Assembly (NCBI RefSeq): GCF_000724545.1
Contig: NZ_JHBV01000008.1
Location: forward strand, 1-64,000
Origin: Aureispira sp. CCB-QB1
GTDB taxonomy: Bacteria; Bacteroidota; Bacteroidia; Chitinophagales; Saprospiraceae
Length of the DNA: 64,000 bases
Direction: 5' to 3'
Shown one piece after another: positions 15,202 to 25,913 of the stretch. The position numbers were made by a program, and so were the translations under genes. The notes under the pieces are model-generated. The model saw nothing but the letters and a program-made list of their open reading frames with translations. It ran no database searches and was not told the DNA's origin. Within the stretch, counting starts at the first letter, position 1; each line of letters opens with the position of its first letter.

Positions 15202-16023
15202 ATGAAAAAAATACTCGTTCCATTCAATTTTTCAGTTTCATCAAGTTGGGGCTTTTGTTATGCTTATGAATTAGCGGCATCTATTGGTGCTGAGATTATT
15301 GTAGTGAATATGTATACGGCTGCTATGGAGTCTACTTATTCCTTAGAAAAACTGCAAGCTAACGCACACAAAAGAAAGCTAGAAATCTTAGAACATTTAA
15401 AAGCAGCAACGCAGTATCCGACAGCTTCTCAATCTGTAAAAGTGTCTTATGATATTGACTATGGTTTGAAGGATGATATTACTTTGTATGCCAAACGCCA
15501 AGATGTGGATTTGATTGTGATGGGAACGGATGGCAATGATAAAGTTTTGAATAAACTTTGGGGAAGCAATACAAGTGCTGTCATTAACAATGCACACTGT
15601 CCTGTATTGGCGATTCCTAATGGGACTAGTTTCAAGTCGGTAAAAACGATAGCGTATGCCACTAATTTTGATGAAAAAGACATAGAGTCAATCACGCAAT
15701 TAGGGCGTGTTGCTGAGGCAACCAATGCAACTTTATTCTGTGTGCATGTCAATCTATTTAGCGAGGCTCCAAAGACCGAGGAGGCAGCAGTTTTTGAAAC
15801 AAAATTACAAGCTAATCTACCTGATTTGCCAATCGTATTTCATGCTTGGAGTGCACATAATGTAGAAGATGGGTTGGAAATCTTTTGTCGTGTAAACCAA
15901 ATAGATATGTTAGCTATGTTGACTCACAACCGTTCTACTTGGGACAAGTTGTTTGGAGAGCATAGTGTGACAAAATCAATGGCAATGCGGAATAAATTAC
16001 CTTTGCTAGCGTTTCACGGATAA
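15202..16023 (+). CDS. Universal stress protein, tandem UspA domains
   Basis: 273 residues with two Usp domains. The first begins KKILVPFNFSVSSSWGF and contains the nucleotide-loop sequence MGTDGNDKVLNKLWGSNTSAVI, near the ATP-binding Gx2Gx9GS/T pattern though altered (G-T-D-G-N). The second (VKTIAYATNFDEKDIES) has lost the clear glycine-rich loop. Soluble cytoplasmic stress protein. It is a paralogue of the gene 53 bp downstream (shared IVxPxxFSxxSSWGF start, VWSAN/AWSAH block and LAMLTHxxSxWxKxFG end), so the pair arose by tandem duplication and is probably co-transcribed. Confidence 0.93.
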   Translation: MKKILVPFNFSVSSSWGFCYAYELAASIGAEIIVVNMYTAAMESTYSLEKLQANAHKRKLEILEHLKAATQYPTASQSVKVSYDIDYGLKDDITLYAKRQDVDLIVMGTDGNDKVLNKLWGSNTSAVINNAHCPVLAIPNGTSFKSVKTIAYATNFDEKDIESITQLGRVAEATNATLFCVHVNLFSEAPKTEEAAVFETKLQANLPDLPIVFHAWSAHNVEDGLEIFCRVNQIDMLAMLTHNRSTWDKLFGEHSVTKSMAMRNKLPLLAFHG

Positions 16024-16076
16024 AATATTGTAGTATACGGAAGTTGATTTTTAAGATATAAAAACATAGGAACATC

Positions 16077-16904
16077 ATGGATAGAATAATTGTACCGGTC
16101 GATTTTTCATCGGCTTCAAGTTGGGGCTTTTATTACGCCTATAATATAGCAAAGGAAATAGGATCAGAACTAGTTGTCGTTCATTTGTACTGGCCTCCTT
16201 ATGTGGAGTCAACTTACCCAGTAGATATGATTCAAACGATTATTAACGAGAAAGAAACAGAGGTTCTAAAGCATCTAAAAGCAGCAACAAGACCTCCTTT
16301 GGGAGACAAAGATGATGTTGCAATACGTTACATCGTTCAGTCAGGCTCTGAAAATTCTATTGTAGACATTGCAACTGAAAATGAGGCTGATTTGATTGTG
16401 ATGGGCACACATGGATCGGGGAAAGCGTTGGACAAGGTGTGGGGAACAAACACAGCTAATGTAATTGAAAGCGCAACTTGTCCTGTATTGGCGATTCCTA
16501 TCGGAGCGGATTATAAAGGAGTTGGTAGCATTGCCTATGCTACAGATTTTGATGATAAAGACACTGAATTGTTGTTGCAATTGACTTTAATTGCGACGGC
16601 AATCAAAGCAAAAGTACATTGTGTGCATATCAATCAAGCCGATGCGCCTTATGATGATAAGAAAGAGGTTGCGTTTAGAACTTCTTTTCAAAAGAATTTT
16701 TCCAGTTTGCCTGTAACTTATTCGGTGTGGAGTGCCAACGAAATAGAAGATGGCTTGGAGACATTTTGTCGAGTCAATAAAATAGATGTGTTGGCGATGT
16801 TGACGCACAAGAAAAGTCTTTGGGGAAAAGTTTTTGGAGGGGCTAGTATTACTAAAAAAATGACAATGCAAACCAAATTACCATTGTTAGCATTTCATAA
16901 GTAA
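16077..16904 (+). CDS. Universal stress protein, tandem UspA domains (paralogue)
   Basis: 275 residues, same architecture as the gene just upstream. Here the first domain keeps the canonical ATP loop: MGTHGSGKALDKVWGTNTANVI has G-x2-G-x9-G-(T) spacing, so ATP binding is more credible than in its neighbour. The second domain starts VGSIAYATDFDDKDTE. No membrane segment or extra domain is seen. The two-gene Usp operon ends at a hairpin 105 bp downstream and lies between the E1 gene and the phenylacetate cluster. A shared stress or oxygen response is only inferred. Confidence 0.93.
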   Translation: MDRIIVPVDFSSASSWGFYYAYNIAKEIGSELVVVHLYWPPYVESTYPVDMIQTIINEKETEVLKHLKAATRPPLGDKDDVAIRYIVQSGSENSIVDIATENEADLIVMGTHGSGKALDKVWGTNTANVIESATCPVLAIPIGADYKGVGSIAYATDFDDKDTELLLQLTLIATAIKAKVHCVHINQADAPYDDKKEVAFRTSFQKNFSSLPVTYSVWSANEIEDGLETFCRVNKIDVLAMLTHKKSLWGKVFGGASITKKMTMQTKLPLLAFHK

Positions 16905-17009
16905 TTGTCTAAGAATATAGCATTGCTGTTTTGTGTTCTGATCATCATTAGTTTACTTGAAAAACATACAGTTTTTGAAGACTACTGGAAATAAAAACTT
17001 AAAGCTTTG

Positions 17010-17042
17010 TAGTCCGCTAATAGTATGAAAATTAGCGGACTA
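17010..17042 (+). terminator. Hairpin after the Usp pair
   Basis: TAGTCCGCTAAT pairs perfectly with ATTAGCGGACTA across a 9-base loop. The following TTGGCTGTTATT is only weakly T-rich, so termination strength is uncertain. Confidence 0.65.
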
Positions 17043-17182
17043 TTGGCTGTTATTATAAAAGCAAGATAGCAAGCTAATTGCGACTACTTGCGAATCAATG
17101 ATTTTACAATTGAAAATTATTATTTAGAAAAAAAATCTATGCTATTATTAATACGGTATAGATTTCCTAAGTTACAAGATAA

Positions 17183-18265
17183 ATGAAACCAACATTTCAC
17201 ACCTTAAAAGTTAAAGAAGTTCGCAAGGAAACGCGTGATTGCTGTTCTATTGCTTTTGAAATTCCTGAAGAATTAAAGCTAGCTTATGATTTTACGCAAG
17301 GGCAGTATTTGACCTTAAAAAAAGATATTAACAATGAAGATATTCGCCGTTCGTACAGCATATGCACAAGTCCGAATGACGATGAGTTGAGAGTGGCTGT
17401 GAAACAGGTGCATAATGGTAAATTCTCTACATTTGCCAATCATCAACTAAAAGCTGGTGATACTTTGGATGTAATGACACCAATGGGAAACTTTTATACA
17501 GAGTTGGATCCAAATCAAGAGAAGCACTATGTTGGTTTTGCCGCAGGTAGTGGTATTACGCCAATTATCTCGATTATGAAAACAGTTTTGGAAACCGAAC
17601 CCAAGAGCCGTTTTACTTTGTTTTATGGAAATAAGAATACAGGTTCAATTATCTTTAAAGAGGAAATTGAAGCCTTAAAAAATAGCTACATGGAGCGTCT
17701 AGTAGTGCATTATTTTTTGAGTCGAGAAATGTTGGATGCTCCCTTGATGAATGGGCGTATTGATAAGGAAAAATGTGCTGCTATTTTTGATACTTTGTTG
17801 GATGTATCAGAGATTGACGATTGTTTTTCTTGTGGTCCTGAGTCTATGATTTTTGCTGTAAAAGATGCTTTGTTAGAACGTGACTTTGATGAAGCAAAAA
17901 TTCACTTTGAACTATTTACGTCTCCCTTGGGTAAATTAGGAGTTGAAAAGAAAATTGAGGTGAAGGAGACCAACAAAGGAAAGTCCTCTCAAATAACTGT
18001 TAATTTGGATGGAAAGGCTTTTCAGTTTGATTTACCTTTTGGAACAGACAATTTGCTTGATGCAGCGTTGAAACAAGGTGCTGATTTGCCTTTTGCTTGT
18101 AAGGGGGGAGTTTGTTGTACATGCAAAGCAAAAATAAAAGAAGGGACAGTAGATATGGCGCTAAATTATGCTTTGGAAAAGGATGAAGTAGAAGCTGGTT
18201 TTATTTTAACTTGCCAAGCTTATCCAACGACAGATAAGGTAGTTATAGACTTTGACGAAGTCTAA
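17183..18265 (+). CDS. paaE: Phenylacetyl-CoA 1,2-epoxidase reductase subunit PaaE
   Basis: 360 residues. The FAD domain has RRSYSICTSP (flavin-contacting R-x-Y-S), the NAD(P)-binding part has GFAAGSGITPIISIMK and SCGPESMIFAVK, and a C-terminal plant-type [2Fe-2S] domain has C-x4-C-x2-C in ACKGGVCCTCKAK with the fourth cysteine in ILTCQAYP. It passes electrons from NADPH to the di-iron centre of PaaA in the epoxidase that dearomatises phenylacetyl-CoA. First gene of paaE-A-B-C, with 105 bp to paaA. Placement of paaE first is usual in Bacteroidota. Confidence 0.95.
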   Translation: MKPTFHTLKVKEVRKETRDCCSIAFEIPEELKLAYDFTQGQYLTLKKDINNEDIRRSYSICTSPNDDELRVAVKQVHNGKFSTFANHQLKAGDTLDVMTPMGNFYTELDPNQEKHYVGFAAGSGITPIISIMKTVLETEPKSRFTLFYGNKNTGSIIFKEEIEALKNSYMERLVVHYFLSREMLDAPLMNGRIDKEKCAAIFDTLLDVSEIDDCFSCGPESMIFAVKDALLERDFDEAKIHFELFTSPLGKLGVEKKIEVKETNKGKSSQITVNLDGKAFQFDLPFGTDNLLDAALKQGADLPFACKGGVCCTCKAKIKEGTVDMALNYALEKDEVEAGFILTCQAYPTTDKVVIDFDEV

Positions 18266-22199: not shown

Positions 22200-24893
22200 C
22201 TATTTTGTAGATAGAGCAGGCAAGGCAATTTCAAATTGTACTTTGAAGGGATCACGTCGGTCTGTCCGTTTCCTATAATGGATATTTCCGTTATGATTGT
22301 CAATAATTTGGTGAATTAGATAGCCCCCGATTCCAGAGTGCCCTGTTTGCCCTGCATAATTTCCATAACCAATAAAATCTTCGAAAGAAAAGTTATTAGG
22401 AAACTCTTTTCCGTCGTTTTTATAAAGAATAATCACCTCTTGTTGATCAGAAGATAAGCCAACTCTAAATTGAATGGTATACTGCTTGTTGTTTTGCACA
22501 AAACCATGGCGTTTCGCATTGTCAATAAGGTTGGTGAAAACAGTTGTAAGTTGTGTTTTATCAATGAGGGTATAGATTGGGATTTCTCGCCCTTTGGCAT
22601 CCTCCTCTACTTCAATCTGAATTCTAAAACTTGTTTCTTGCGTATAAAATTGTTGAATTTCTTCTAAAAAATCTTTAATTTTCGTTCGTTCTAGATTGAG
22701 TTTACTTCGATCCGCTTTGATAATATCTCCTGTTGAATCAAGGCTATTGATAGAATGAATGAGTATGGATTCTATTCGTTCTATCGTGGTGGCTAAGGTG
22801 TCAACAGTATCAATATCTTCGTCCTCAAAAACGGGAAACATGGGTTCTGAAAAATTAATTGGTGTTTGATCTTCCTCTTTGTCTTTTAGAAAATATTTTA
22901 AGTTTTTAATTTCTGTAAGAACAGCAGGCAATCGATTTCCTAATTCATGTTGCAAGGAAGAAATAATTTTATATTGTTCATTTTGAGCTCTTTGTTTGCC
23001 TAAATTTAAATCATTTCGAAGTTGCTCTACTTTTTCTTCCTCTTCTTGAAGCAAACGAACTTTTGTTTCTTTGATAATTGTCGCCTGTTCTTCTAAAGGG
23101 GGTAAATTGATTTGAAGCCCTTCAAAGTATTCTTCCGTAATCATGTTGTGTTGATAATCCATCTTATACATATTGAGTTGCTGTATAAAAAGATCATCGT
23201 GTAGTTGCAAAATGAGGTATTCAATTAAGAGGCGATCTTCGTCCACTCGAAAGGTCATGATGTCTTCATTAACCAATATAGGAGTACCTTGAAAAACAAA
23301 GTAACTTGTTCTCAATTTTCGACCAGATCGGTTGACCAATAAAATAGATTCATTAATCAGTTGACCAGCAACTTGCTGCACCTCATCAGTGTTGGGAATA
23401 TTTTTAGGGTCAATTAGATAGTTGGTAATGGATTTACCCAAATTCTGAGGGCGTATGTAAGGAATATCTTGATAAGGTGTTTCGTCAAACCACAATGCTG
23501 GGCGTTCGGATCTAAAAATTTCTTTGAGCCGAATTAACTGTCCGTGCGCTTCTAACAATCGAAGTTGTGCAATAAAAGGAGAGGCGTAACGCTTGGCATC
23601 TAAATTATAATCGTTTAAGATAACTTGATGTAAAGGAATTGTAGAAACGCAAGCCTCCAGTTCTGGTGTGCAGTCGGTGTCTAAGTGATGAAAGACGGCC
23701 CGAATACATTCTACATGTTTGGGAGTTAATTCACGGTTTAGTTTGGATTGCGTTTTGACATCCAAGTTGGCACCGTTTATAAATAAAATTTGCTCTTTTC
23801 GCAAAGTAGTTTTATTTTTATTAATCACCAAAATACAGATGGGAATACCCGTAGAATGCAACAACCCATAAGGCAACGTGATAACAGCTTCTAATAAATC
23901 TCTACGAATAAGAAATTCTCTCAGTTTTCTATCTTCTTTATCATCTACTAGCGTATTAATTGGCATGATGGTAATTAAGCGCCCTTTGGTGTTTAATTTG
24001 GACAACATGAGTTGTATAAACAGGCTATTGCAAGGAATATGTGGTGTACTTACGTCAAAAGGAATAGAAGTATAGGACTGTTCTTTGATTTTTTCTGTTG
24101 GTGTATATTGACCAAAAGGAAAATGAGCAATGGCAATGTCTACTTTCAAATCTTCTTGTAAGTCATCTACTAAGGTGTTTCCATTACTGATTTGGGCTTG
24201 ATAAGCTCCATTTGCCCATAAATTCATTTTACAGAGTGCCCAGATATGAATATTTTGTTCTTGAGCAAAAACATGCAAGTTGGGCTCTTTGTTTAGAAAT
24301 GCAATCAAACTAGAACCTTGACCAGCAGTAGGATCGTAGACAGATTCGTTGGTTTGGGGATTGGCAAGTTCTACTAATAATTGATTAATTGTTTTGGGGG
24401 TCGTTCGTTTAATCCCAGTATTACTTGCTCGAAGTGCGGTTCTATACAAACTGTCGTTAAAGAAACTGCCAAATTCGGAAATAGAAATGGCTTTGGTTGA
24501 GAAATCTAAATCCTCCAATACTAGAATAACTTGAATGAGTAATTGTAGATTATTTTCTTCTTGTAAAGCGAGCCCCAACGGCGCAAAAATATTTTTGAGC
24601 GAAGTATTTCGCTTGGAAAATTGCGTTAGGGTAATAATTAGGTCGCGCATGGCTAACTCTGGATCATCAATAACTTTATTTCTAAAATTACTTGACCAAA
24701 GATAGTCTTCTGGCTCTGTTTCAATAAAATCAAAAACGTGCTCTTTTTGGAGGGCTAAAATTCGTTTGAAAAATACTAAAGAAAGTAAGACACTACTTGC
24801 GTTGTTGGCATCCCAAACACCTCGAAGGGAGTCTAAGGTCGAAAAAAAAACAGCTTCTAACTGTTGTGCATGCTCTCTGGTTTTGGTATCCAT
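22200..24893 (-). CDS. Fusion protein: type I methyltransferase (HsdM-like) + specificity (HsdS-like) + histidine-kinase-type ATPase
   Basis: 897 residues in one frame. Residues 1-130 match the HsdM N-terminal helical domain (FFSTLDSLRGVW, LSLVFFKRILAL). 140-400 is an N6-adenine methyltransferase core with SAM motif I DPTAGQGS (187-194), but motif IV, normally NPPF/Y, reads HFPF (257-260), so methylation may be lost. 430-610 is an HsdS-like target-recognition half ending LPPLEEQATI (597-606). A coiled coil (606-645) leads to SLQHELGNRLP (H649), resembling a phospho-acceptor H-box, and a GHKL ATPase: N-box TNLIDNAKRHGF (787-798), G1-like KNDGKEFP, G2 GHSGIGGYLIHQIIDNHNG (851-869). No hsdR or receiver partner is adjacent. 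Function unknown: DNA- or SAM-triggered kinase, or defence sensor, are inferences. Confidence 0.85.
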   Translation of the reverse strand: MDTKTREHAQQLEAVFFSTLDSLRGVWDANNASSVLLSLVFFKRILALQKEHVFDFIETEPEDYLWSSNFRNKVIDDPELAMRDLIITLTQFSKRNTSLKNIFAPLGLALQEENNLQLLIQVILVLEDLDFSTKAISISEFGSFFNDSLYRTALRASNTGIKRTTPKTINQLLVELANPQTNESVYDPTAGQGSSLIAFLNKEPNLHVFAQEQNIHIWALCKMNLWANGAYQAQISNGNTLVDDLQEDLKVDIAIAHFPFGQYTPTEKIKEQSYTSIPFDVSTPHIPCNSLFIQLMLSKLNTKGRLITIMPINTLVDDKEDRKLREFLIRRDLLEAVITLPYGLLHSTGIPICILVINKNKTTLRKEQILFINGANLDVKTQSKLNRELTPKHVECIRAVFHHLDTDCTPELEACVSTIPLHQVILNDYNLDAKRYASPFIAQLRLLEAHGQLIRLKEIFRSERPALWFDETPYQDIPYIRPQNLGKSITNYLIDPKNIPNTDEVQQVAGQLINESILLVNRSGRKLRTSYFVFQGTPILVNEDIMTFRVDEDRLLIEYLILQLHDDLFIQQLNMYKMDYQHNMITEEYFEGLQINLPPLEEQATIIKETKVRLLQEEEEKVEQLRNDLNLGKQRAQNEQYKIISSLQHELGNRLPAVLTEIKNLKYFLKDKEEDQTPINFSEPMFPVFEDEDIDTVDTLATTIERIESILIHSINSLDSTGDIIKADRSKLNLERTKIKDFLEEIQQFYTQETSFRIQIEVEEDAKGREIPIYTLIDKTQLTTVFTNLIDNAKRHGFVQNNKQYTIQFRVGLSSDQQEVIILYKNDGKEFPNNFSFEDFIGYGNYAGQTGHSGIGGYLIHQIIDNHNGNIHYRKRTDRRDPFKVQFEIALPALSTK

Positions 24894-25409: not shown

Positions 25410-25913
25410 ATGATAACAATGGAAAAATGTCCTTGTGGTAGCCAACAAACTTACTCTAATTGCTGCGCTCCTTTTTTAGAAGGGAGACAAAATGCACCAA
25501 CAGCAGAAGCGTTGATGCGTTCAAGGTATACGGCACATGTAAAAGGGGAAATAGATTATATTATCCATACGGTTCACCCTGATAGAAGAGCAGACAGCGA
25601 TCGAAAAACAATTGAAAGTTGGGCTAAAGAAGCCGATTGGAAAGGTCTGGAAATTCTTCAAAGAACACAGGGCTCAGAAAAAGATGACGTAGGGCGTGTT
25701 GTTTTTAAAGCACATTACAAATATCAAAATCTCCTGAAAGTACATACAGAAGATTCTTTGTTTAAGAGGGTCGAAGGAAAATGGTATTTTGTGGAAGGGG
25801 TAGAACCTAAGCGAATTTATACTAAAACTTCAAAAATTGGTCGCAATGATCCTTGTTCTTGTGGAAGTGGAAAGAAGTTTAAAAAATGTTGCGCGAAAAA
25901 GGGAGGCTTTTGA
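25410..25913 (+). CDS. YchJ family protein with SEC-C zinc motifs
   Basis: 167 residues. An N-terminal SEC-C-like motif [13 protein letters not shown] and a canonical C-terminal SEC-C zinc knuckle [16 protein letters not shown] flank a NTF2-like YchJ middle domain ([23 protein letters not shown] is split across residues 28-50, [16 protein letters not shown]). It belongs to UPF0225/YchJ; zinc binding is expected, biochemical role unknown. The first ATG (25410) is used; an ATG at 25419 (MEKCPCGS) is equally good. Operon with VF530. Confidence 0.93.

Follow-up and report, generated by a model that had tools for sequence, protein, structure and literature searches.

Detocs is a two-component anti-phage system, in which a histidine kinase and a receiver act in defence, and to our knowledge it has no methyltransferase or target recognition domain (TRD) as a sensor. 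A PNP effector is listed for it (PMC10952713). For DndH (PMC10853773) an inactive DAM methyltransferase is described whose S-adenosylmethionine (SAM) and [SDN]PP[FYW] motifs are eroded, with the domain retained. Cam2, which has a REC domain and occurs in type III CRISPR loci, is a membrane protein by prediction, and no associated histidine kinase is reported for it (PMC11229360). Here we describe P0001, a gene found on contig C8 of Aureispira sp. CCB-QB1 in a stretch of 64,000 nucleotides (NZ_JHBV01000008.1, positions 1 to 64,000; below, the window), whose product is most plausibly a soluble histidine kinase. With a probability of about 0.6, it is a cytoplasmic kinase of the HisKA type that uses a pseudo-HsdM and one TRD as its sensor and signals to a dedicated receiver protein. 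No description of an architecture joining M, S and kinase was found in the open literature searched, which lacks most subscription papers.

P0001 is an uninterrupted minus-strand frame with an ATG start, 897 codons and one stop; between window positions 22200 and 24893 the plus strand is full of stops in the same frame. The initial annotation had described a single 897-codon protein with these coordinates, which proved right, the strand being minus. The features of the gene are the following.

22200–24893, minus strand: P0001, whole gene, predicted 897-residue histidine kinase with a pseudo HsdM–HsdS sensor (frame, Pfam, orthologues)
24531–24854 (residues 14–121), minus strand: weak HsdM N-terminal-like helical region (Pfam HsdM_N, E = 0.028, under the cut-off)
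23577–24410 (residues 162–439), minus strand: N6_Mtase-like domain, predicted catalytically dead (Pfam, 4.5e-49; motif comparison)
24315–24335 (residues 187–193), minus strand: motif I, DPTAGQG, SAM-loop pattern retained (motif comparison)
24114–24125 (residues 257–260), minus strand: motif IV position, HFPF where NPPF/Y is expected (motif comparison)
23070–23534 (residues 454–608), minus strand: single HsdS-like target recognition domain (Pfam Methylase_S, 5.4e-9)
22581–23060 (about residues 612–771), minus strand: coiled coil and DHp-like (dimerisation/histidine) region (profile A5 against solved sensor kinases, E ~4e-16)
22947–22949, minus strand: H649, predicted phospho-acceptor histidine (invariance; alignment with the SHELRTPL His of 5uht)
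22245–22562 (residues 778–883), minus strand: HATPase_c (GHKL) catalytic domain (Pfam, 7.8e-9; N792, H796, N826, G828, G854 and G856 invariant)

The N6_Mtase, Methylase_S and HATPase_c matches were each over the Pfam gathering cut-off, which the HsdM_N match (0.028) did not reach. Among solved structures, the front of P0001 matched type I M proteins (7vru, 7bst and others), the middle of the family, taken as a profile, matched S subunits, and the back matched histidine kinases. The HsdS-like region, the LPPLEEQ peptide and the GHKL (N, G1 and G2) boxes named in the initial annotation were all present. Its HsdM N-terminal domain is suggestive at most, and its assumption of an N6-adenine methyltransferase core needs correcting, as motif IV reads HFPF instead of NPPF.

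The kinase assignment was examined with profile A5, built from the last ~285 residues of 26 family members. Seven of its columns were invariant, namely one His, the Asn and His of the N box, N-x-G and G-x-G. Its matches to 5uht, 2c2a and 3dge had E ~4e-16 and spanned both the histidine helix and the ATPase, and the invariant His of the family aligned with that of SHELRTPL in 5uht; we take these chains to be HK853 and this His to be its phospho-acceptor. The corresponding residues of P0001 (H649, N792, H796, N826, G828, G854, G856) were kept in 21/21 methylase-type members and in all eight later members found through the partner only. Counted over all methylase-type members, the kinase residues were retained in 28/28, and H649 itself was invariant with varying residues next to it, so the H-box proposed at SLQHELGNRLP is real. 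The G305 row (1049 residues), which differs at H796 and G828, was left out of the 21-member count, the ordinary HsdM or restriction genes of G270 (L040) and G139 (L042) were removed from the family rows, and the kinases of G354 (fragmented) and G185 (cut by a contig end) were kept out of the motif counts. The G305 protein (L095:466-3615) matches the family profile and is off at two of the seven kinase positions; it is possibly another fusion type. An N-terminal HARE-HTH was matched in three relatives, slightly under the cut-off.

The methylase part of P0001 looks dead (METHYLTRANSFERASE). Motif IV reads HFPF in six of the seven Aureispira sequences and HFAF in the seventh. Across the 28 methylase-type kinases, [NDS]PP[FYW] was kept in four (G186, G125, G375 and G549, the first two being near copies), a count that was again obtained when whole proteins were searched; the motif I pattern [DE]PxxGxG was kept in 11, and no kinase had both. 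Ordinary HsdMs from the same surveys, that is, the 37 that passed the filter among loci L002–L034, L049–L052 and L094–L102, had motif IV in 37/37, motif I in 33/37 and both in 33/37. Motif I was searched in the aligned stretch for the kinases and in the whole protein for the HsdMs, and motif IV in whole proteins for both. Paired within the 14 loci that have a companion HsdM, motif IV was present in the companion in 14/14 and in the kinase in 4/14. Since the sequences are related, Fisher values for this loss overstate its significance and were set aside. The SAM-loop pattern DPxxGxG was found in 7/7 Aureispira copies; DPTAGQG of P0001 fits the motif I pattern.

In the relatives, a gene for a protein of about 290–410 residues with a divergent receiver domain at its front lies directly behind the kinase gene, at a spacing of −35 to +15 bp in 22/22 tabulated loci; spacings were taken from longest-frame starts, so small overlaps are uncertain. 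Pfam Response_reg was matched in two of the six receivers first scanned (best 4.4e-5) and in three of nine others at 0.0023 to 0.052 only, and the receiver profile matched response regulators of the PDB at ~0.002. Positions D18, D63, T/S100 and K121, as counted in the receiver of G175, were present in 22/22. Pfam gave no recognised output domain in the receivers, only stray weak matches. Alignment A2 displays a C-terminal extension in several receivers of ~380–410 residues, and of six receivers that were scanned one gave a weak S1/CSD-like TOTE match (0.0017), a hint of a barrel that binds nucleic acid.

A receiver-profile search of 395 class genomes returned 14 receivers, the own genome included. 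An intact kinase was found next door in ten, six of which had supplied the search profile; the kinase of G185 is cut by the contig end and that of G354 is in fragments. At the latter locus (L127:1765-4168) the fragmented kinase gene stands beside a receiver gene that is still open. When a receiver-only profile was used on 395 genomes of the phylum, 13 receivers were found, and all eight new ones adjoin a kinase, which independently confirms the adjacency. One more, G962, adjoining a kinase core, was obtained from 391 genomes of the class of G485. The groups G186+G125+G341+Myroides, G309+G175+G193 and Aureispira are common to the kinase and receiver trees. The survey of homologues for a conserved partner, which the initial annotation had proposed, has in this way brought out a receiver gene that it had missed, located on another contig in the source genome.

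This gene, P0002, is the sole such receiver of the source genome and lies near the start of contig C47 (110–1030), on which the kinase profile gave no match. As stored, P0002 has one extra residue before Met, and its receiver aspartate is residue 63 in that count. Because P0002 is an orphan on another contig than the kinase, its pairing with P0001 has to be drawn from the rest of the family: we infer it from the family-wide adjacency, the largely matching trees and the co-conservation. The receiver was present in 8/8 Aureispira genomes as against 7/8 for the kinase. For a conserved C-terminal His of the receivers, one alignment puts N or Q in the Aureispira sequences and another shows it as invariant (H266), and owing to this disagreement nothing was drawn from it.

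Full-length orthologues of P0001 with 87–88% identity were found in two metagenome-assembled genomes (L035, L036), and a search of 40 relatives placed the full-length gene in seven of the eight Aureispira genomes; G295 and G296, apparently the same assemblies as G302 and G297 (identical contig numbers and places), were counted once. Beside the two metagenome-assembled genomes, the same full-length frame occurs in four more genomes of the genus, G298–G301. Because these orthologues carry it, a fusion created by sequencing error, which the initial annotation had named as a refuting case, is excluded. The neighbourhood of P0001 is shared on both sides in L035 and on one side in L036 (by reading), and on both sides in G299 and partly in G301 (BLAST). 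Between the L035 and L036 orthologues pN was 0.049, pS 0.515 and dN/dS 0.058, with values per part of 0.085 (N-terminus), 0.080 (methyltransferase), 0.055 (TRD), 0.023 (coiled coil–DHp) and 0.025 (ATPase). The codons of P0001 are under purifying selection in every part, including the recognition domain; this result rests on the L035–L036 pair only, dS for most pairs being near or past saturation.

Type I restriction genes were present in the fetched stretch at 15 of the 21 methylase-type kinases from outside Aureispira. A separate HsdM was found at 14 (G175, G193, G186, G125, G211, G292, Myroides, G341, G375, G502, G542, G593, G559 and G549), the calls being backed by Pfam for some loci and by annotation for Myroides, and at G165 an HsdR stands beside the kinase. 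None were seen at G330, G308, G309, G318, G566 and G673, where some of the stretches are short. A WYL-type regulator was confirmed beside two kinases, and by eye only a gene with the same N-terminal sequence was recognised at several further loci. The complete record of pFM-G13, a Myroides plasmid, lists in succession WYL, 'N-6 DNA methylase' (the kinase), 'hypothetical protein' (the receiver), HsdM and HsdS, so that the annotation names neither kinase nor receiver. In G175 (L037:5346-8228), at a locus with type I restriction genes, the kinase–receiver pair has a gene for a NACHT-domain protein immediately upstream, and in G566 (L148:8961-12720) the pair is accompanied by an ATPase-like gene and, judged by eye, a WYL-like one, no HsdM being seen.

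In the reading preferred here, the sensor would be a pseudo-enzyme, an HsdM deprived of catalytic motif IV and fused to one HsdS target recognition domain. Kinases of the HisKA class act as dimers, so two chains would present two M and two recognition domains. This M2-TRD2 dimer may mimic the M2S core of type I enzymes and recognise a symmetric, bipartite site in DNA that it would leave unmethylated; we infer that P0001 senses DNA, and the DNA-site guidance suggested at the outset would fit the S-like domain. The coiled coil would respond to such binding, or to a change in it brought about by methylation, SAM or invading DNA, and autophosphorylation at H649 would be switched as a result; the phosphate would then be passed to the dedicated receiver protein, P0002 in this genome. 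In the relatives the kinase–receiver pair of the type I loci could tune or alarm the restriction system, and in Aureispira it may have been turned into a fixed chromosomal regulator. Signalling by phosphorylation, one of the roles suggested for the protein at the outset, is supported by the HisKA-type histidine, the GHKL boxes and the dedicated family of receiver-domain partners.

Several observations weigh against this reading. In the G1 box the family carries Asn at the position of the 5uht Asp, as does the solved sensor 3a0r, which is the best match of A5 by E-value and covers the ATPase and the second helix only. The kinase core of G962 has Asn in place of the histidine. The Pfam receiver match of P0002 is weak (0.052), the Aureispira kinase and receiver genes lie apart (~740 kb in G299, ~17 kb in G301), G303 has the receiver with the kinase not found, and upstream of the G141 receiver no kinase match occurs within the 420 bp available. 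The kinase and receiver trees agree in part, G211 falling in different halves, and the group G165+G375, common to both, has weak support (82/62) in that of the kinase. In the methylase-domain tree, which has long branches, one fusion origin was neither supported nor rejected (p-AU 0.157). The AlphaFold model of P0001, from a three-sequence alignment, had a mean pLDDT (predicted local distance difference test) of 32.

A wider interpretation, tentative and at somewhat short of even odds, is that of a Bacteroidota signalling cassette with one kinase core and one receiver family, whose sensor is swapped according to the nucleic-acid reader of the defence locus, and which was domesticated and split in Aureispira as a non-catalytic reader of a chromosomal site or its methylation. 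In type I loci the sensor would be a dead M–S part; G485, in its type III-A CRISPR locus, and G962, next to a CARF-like protein, would each have a different one. In G485 (L151:2605-13241) the kinase core and the receiver lie within a type III-A locus with Cas10, a RAMP protein, Csx1-CARF and Cas1, followed by a repeat array of 25 copies at 16011–17953, and this kinase had no Pfam methylase match. The G962 kinase core (L154:7777-11019) comes after an RtcR/Csm6-CARF-like gene. In G485 the Csx1/CARF frame and the end of the receiver gene overlap, and the N-terminus of the G962 kinase is different, GIY-YIG-like by eye with no such Pfam match.

Detection of the modification state, another role that had been suggested, is weakened as far as companion restriction sites are concerned by a comparison of G186 with G125. 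Between them the kinases are 97% identical, the receivers 98% and the HsdMs 94%; the HsdS proteins share 37%, against 96% for the TRD of the kinase. In this pair the kinase does not follow the restriction target. What the kinase reads may be a constant site of its own or may not be DNA at all. Similarity between TRD and HsdS was generally weak, and of the kinases whose companion HsdS was in the set, the own companion was the best among the matches listed for G292 only; this comparison was made without the Myroides HsdS, and its row labelled G165 S is an HsdR.

The strongest competitor, though an unlikely one, keeps the same kinase and lets the pseudo M–S part sense proteins or metabolites (HsdM/HsdR assemblies, phage anti-restriction proteins, SAM) and not DNA sequence. 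The SAM loop of all seven Aureispira copies would fit it, as would a recognition domain that stays constant in G186 and G125 while the companion HsdS differs; with HsdM 94% identical in these two, contact with HsdM could still be made. Against this, Aureispira retains the gene without adjoining companion restriction genes, and the TRD is conserved like the rest of the front half, a conservation that pure HsdM contact would not need.

Considerably less probable is that the GHKL domain acts as an ATP-driven conformational switch and hands no phosphate on. GHKL ATPases without phosphotransfer exist, and the G962 protein, with its other sensor, has lost the histidine yet kept the ATPase residues. 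Against such a switch stand the invariance of H649 amid varying neighbours, the likeness of the family to solved kinases in the histidine-bearing domain, and partner receivers that keep Asp, Thr/Ser and Lys in 22/22.

It is highly improbable that P0001 methylates DNA, its ATPase being regulatory, and that Aureispira marks its DNA in this way. The strong N6_Mtase match and the intact motif IV pattern in four of the 28 relatives speak for it; with HFPF or HFAF in 7/7 Aureispira copies and both motifs in 0/28, it was rejected on motif IV. An annotation or assembly artefact joining hsdM, hsdS and a kinase gene, for which the unusual architecture and a sole annotated relative named merely 'N-6 DNA methylase' could be cited, has a negligible chance, being refuted by the orthologues, with full-length copies in several genera, a complete plasmid record and seven Aureispira genomes.

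The neighbours of P0001 are ordinary chromosomal genes (ROK-family, YCII-domain, PaaA/PaaC, VF530, YchJ/SEC-C and biotin-synthase-like). Applied to ten of them, PADLOC hit nothing but the SEC-C tail of one protein, and that with short matches; since that tail is all that is shared, they are no sign of a defence system. The protein concerned, of the YchJ/SEC-C kind (window positions 25410–25910), matches several PADLOC models through this tail, the best at 7.2e-9. In agreement with the initial annotation there is no hsdR near P0001, the four HSDR_N matches of the source genome being on contigs C146, C45, C48 and C24. The suggestion of a defence protein thus held in part: 15/21 kinases outside Aureispira adjoin type I restriction genes, whereas the Aureispira gene does not stand in such company. 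PADLOC mad2 matched the M part of P0001 (1.5e-29) and mad5 the S part of two relatives, and no mad genes were found among the ten neighbours. In viral contigs, exact short-peptide patterns, by which only close relatives can be found, revealed none for P0001 and none for the receiver of G186. The Myroides receiver had no match in phages and P0002 none in plasmids. Eleven plasmid records matched the C-terminal half of the kinase, three from Myroides and eight being Rhizobium sensor kinases (ATPase part only). In a promoter and terminator scan, matches were no more frequent than in shuffles.

If the proposed reading is true, restriction-modification subunits would form the sensory half of a two-component system, tying DNA sequence or methylation to a phosphorelay, restriction and CRISPR loci would gain a built-in signalling arm, and the kinase is predicted to be switched by DNA. 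It could also account for gene pairs annotated as 'N-6 DNA methylase' and, next in order, 'hypothetical protein', such as the one of the Myroides plasmid. The family suggests that bacteria use parts of restriction enzymes for sensing DNA and not for cutting or marking it.

With type I M and S subunits of the EcoR124I and EcoKI type, P0001 has in common an HsdM-like domain and one TRD; it differs in the lack of catalytic motif IV, in the fusion of M with half of an S, in the added kinase and, in Aureispira, in having no R subunit beside it. The likeness to mad2 and mad5 of MADS is confined to shared methylase and specificity domains. DndH is alike in retaining a DNA methyltransferase domain with eroded motifs, coupled there to REase and HerA/FtsK and here to a kinase. 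Cam2, like the G485 locus, brings a receiver domain together with type III CRISPR, and differs from it as a predicted membrane protein reported without a histidine kinase. Detocs shares with the P0001 family a histidine kinase and a receiver in a defence setting, and the receiver of the P0001 family is set apart by carrying no effector that Pfam recognises. The HisKA-type sensor kinases 5uht, 2c2a and 3dge have the histidine helix and the N, G1 and G2 boxes in common with the P0001 family; as for a receiver partner, one adjoins the kinase in the relatives, and in Aureispira the putative partner is an orphan elsewhere in the genome. From these kinases P0001 departs in having Asn for the G1 Asp and in a sensor that appears to be a pseudo HsdM joined to half of an HsdS.

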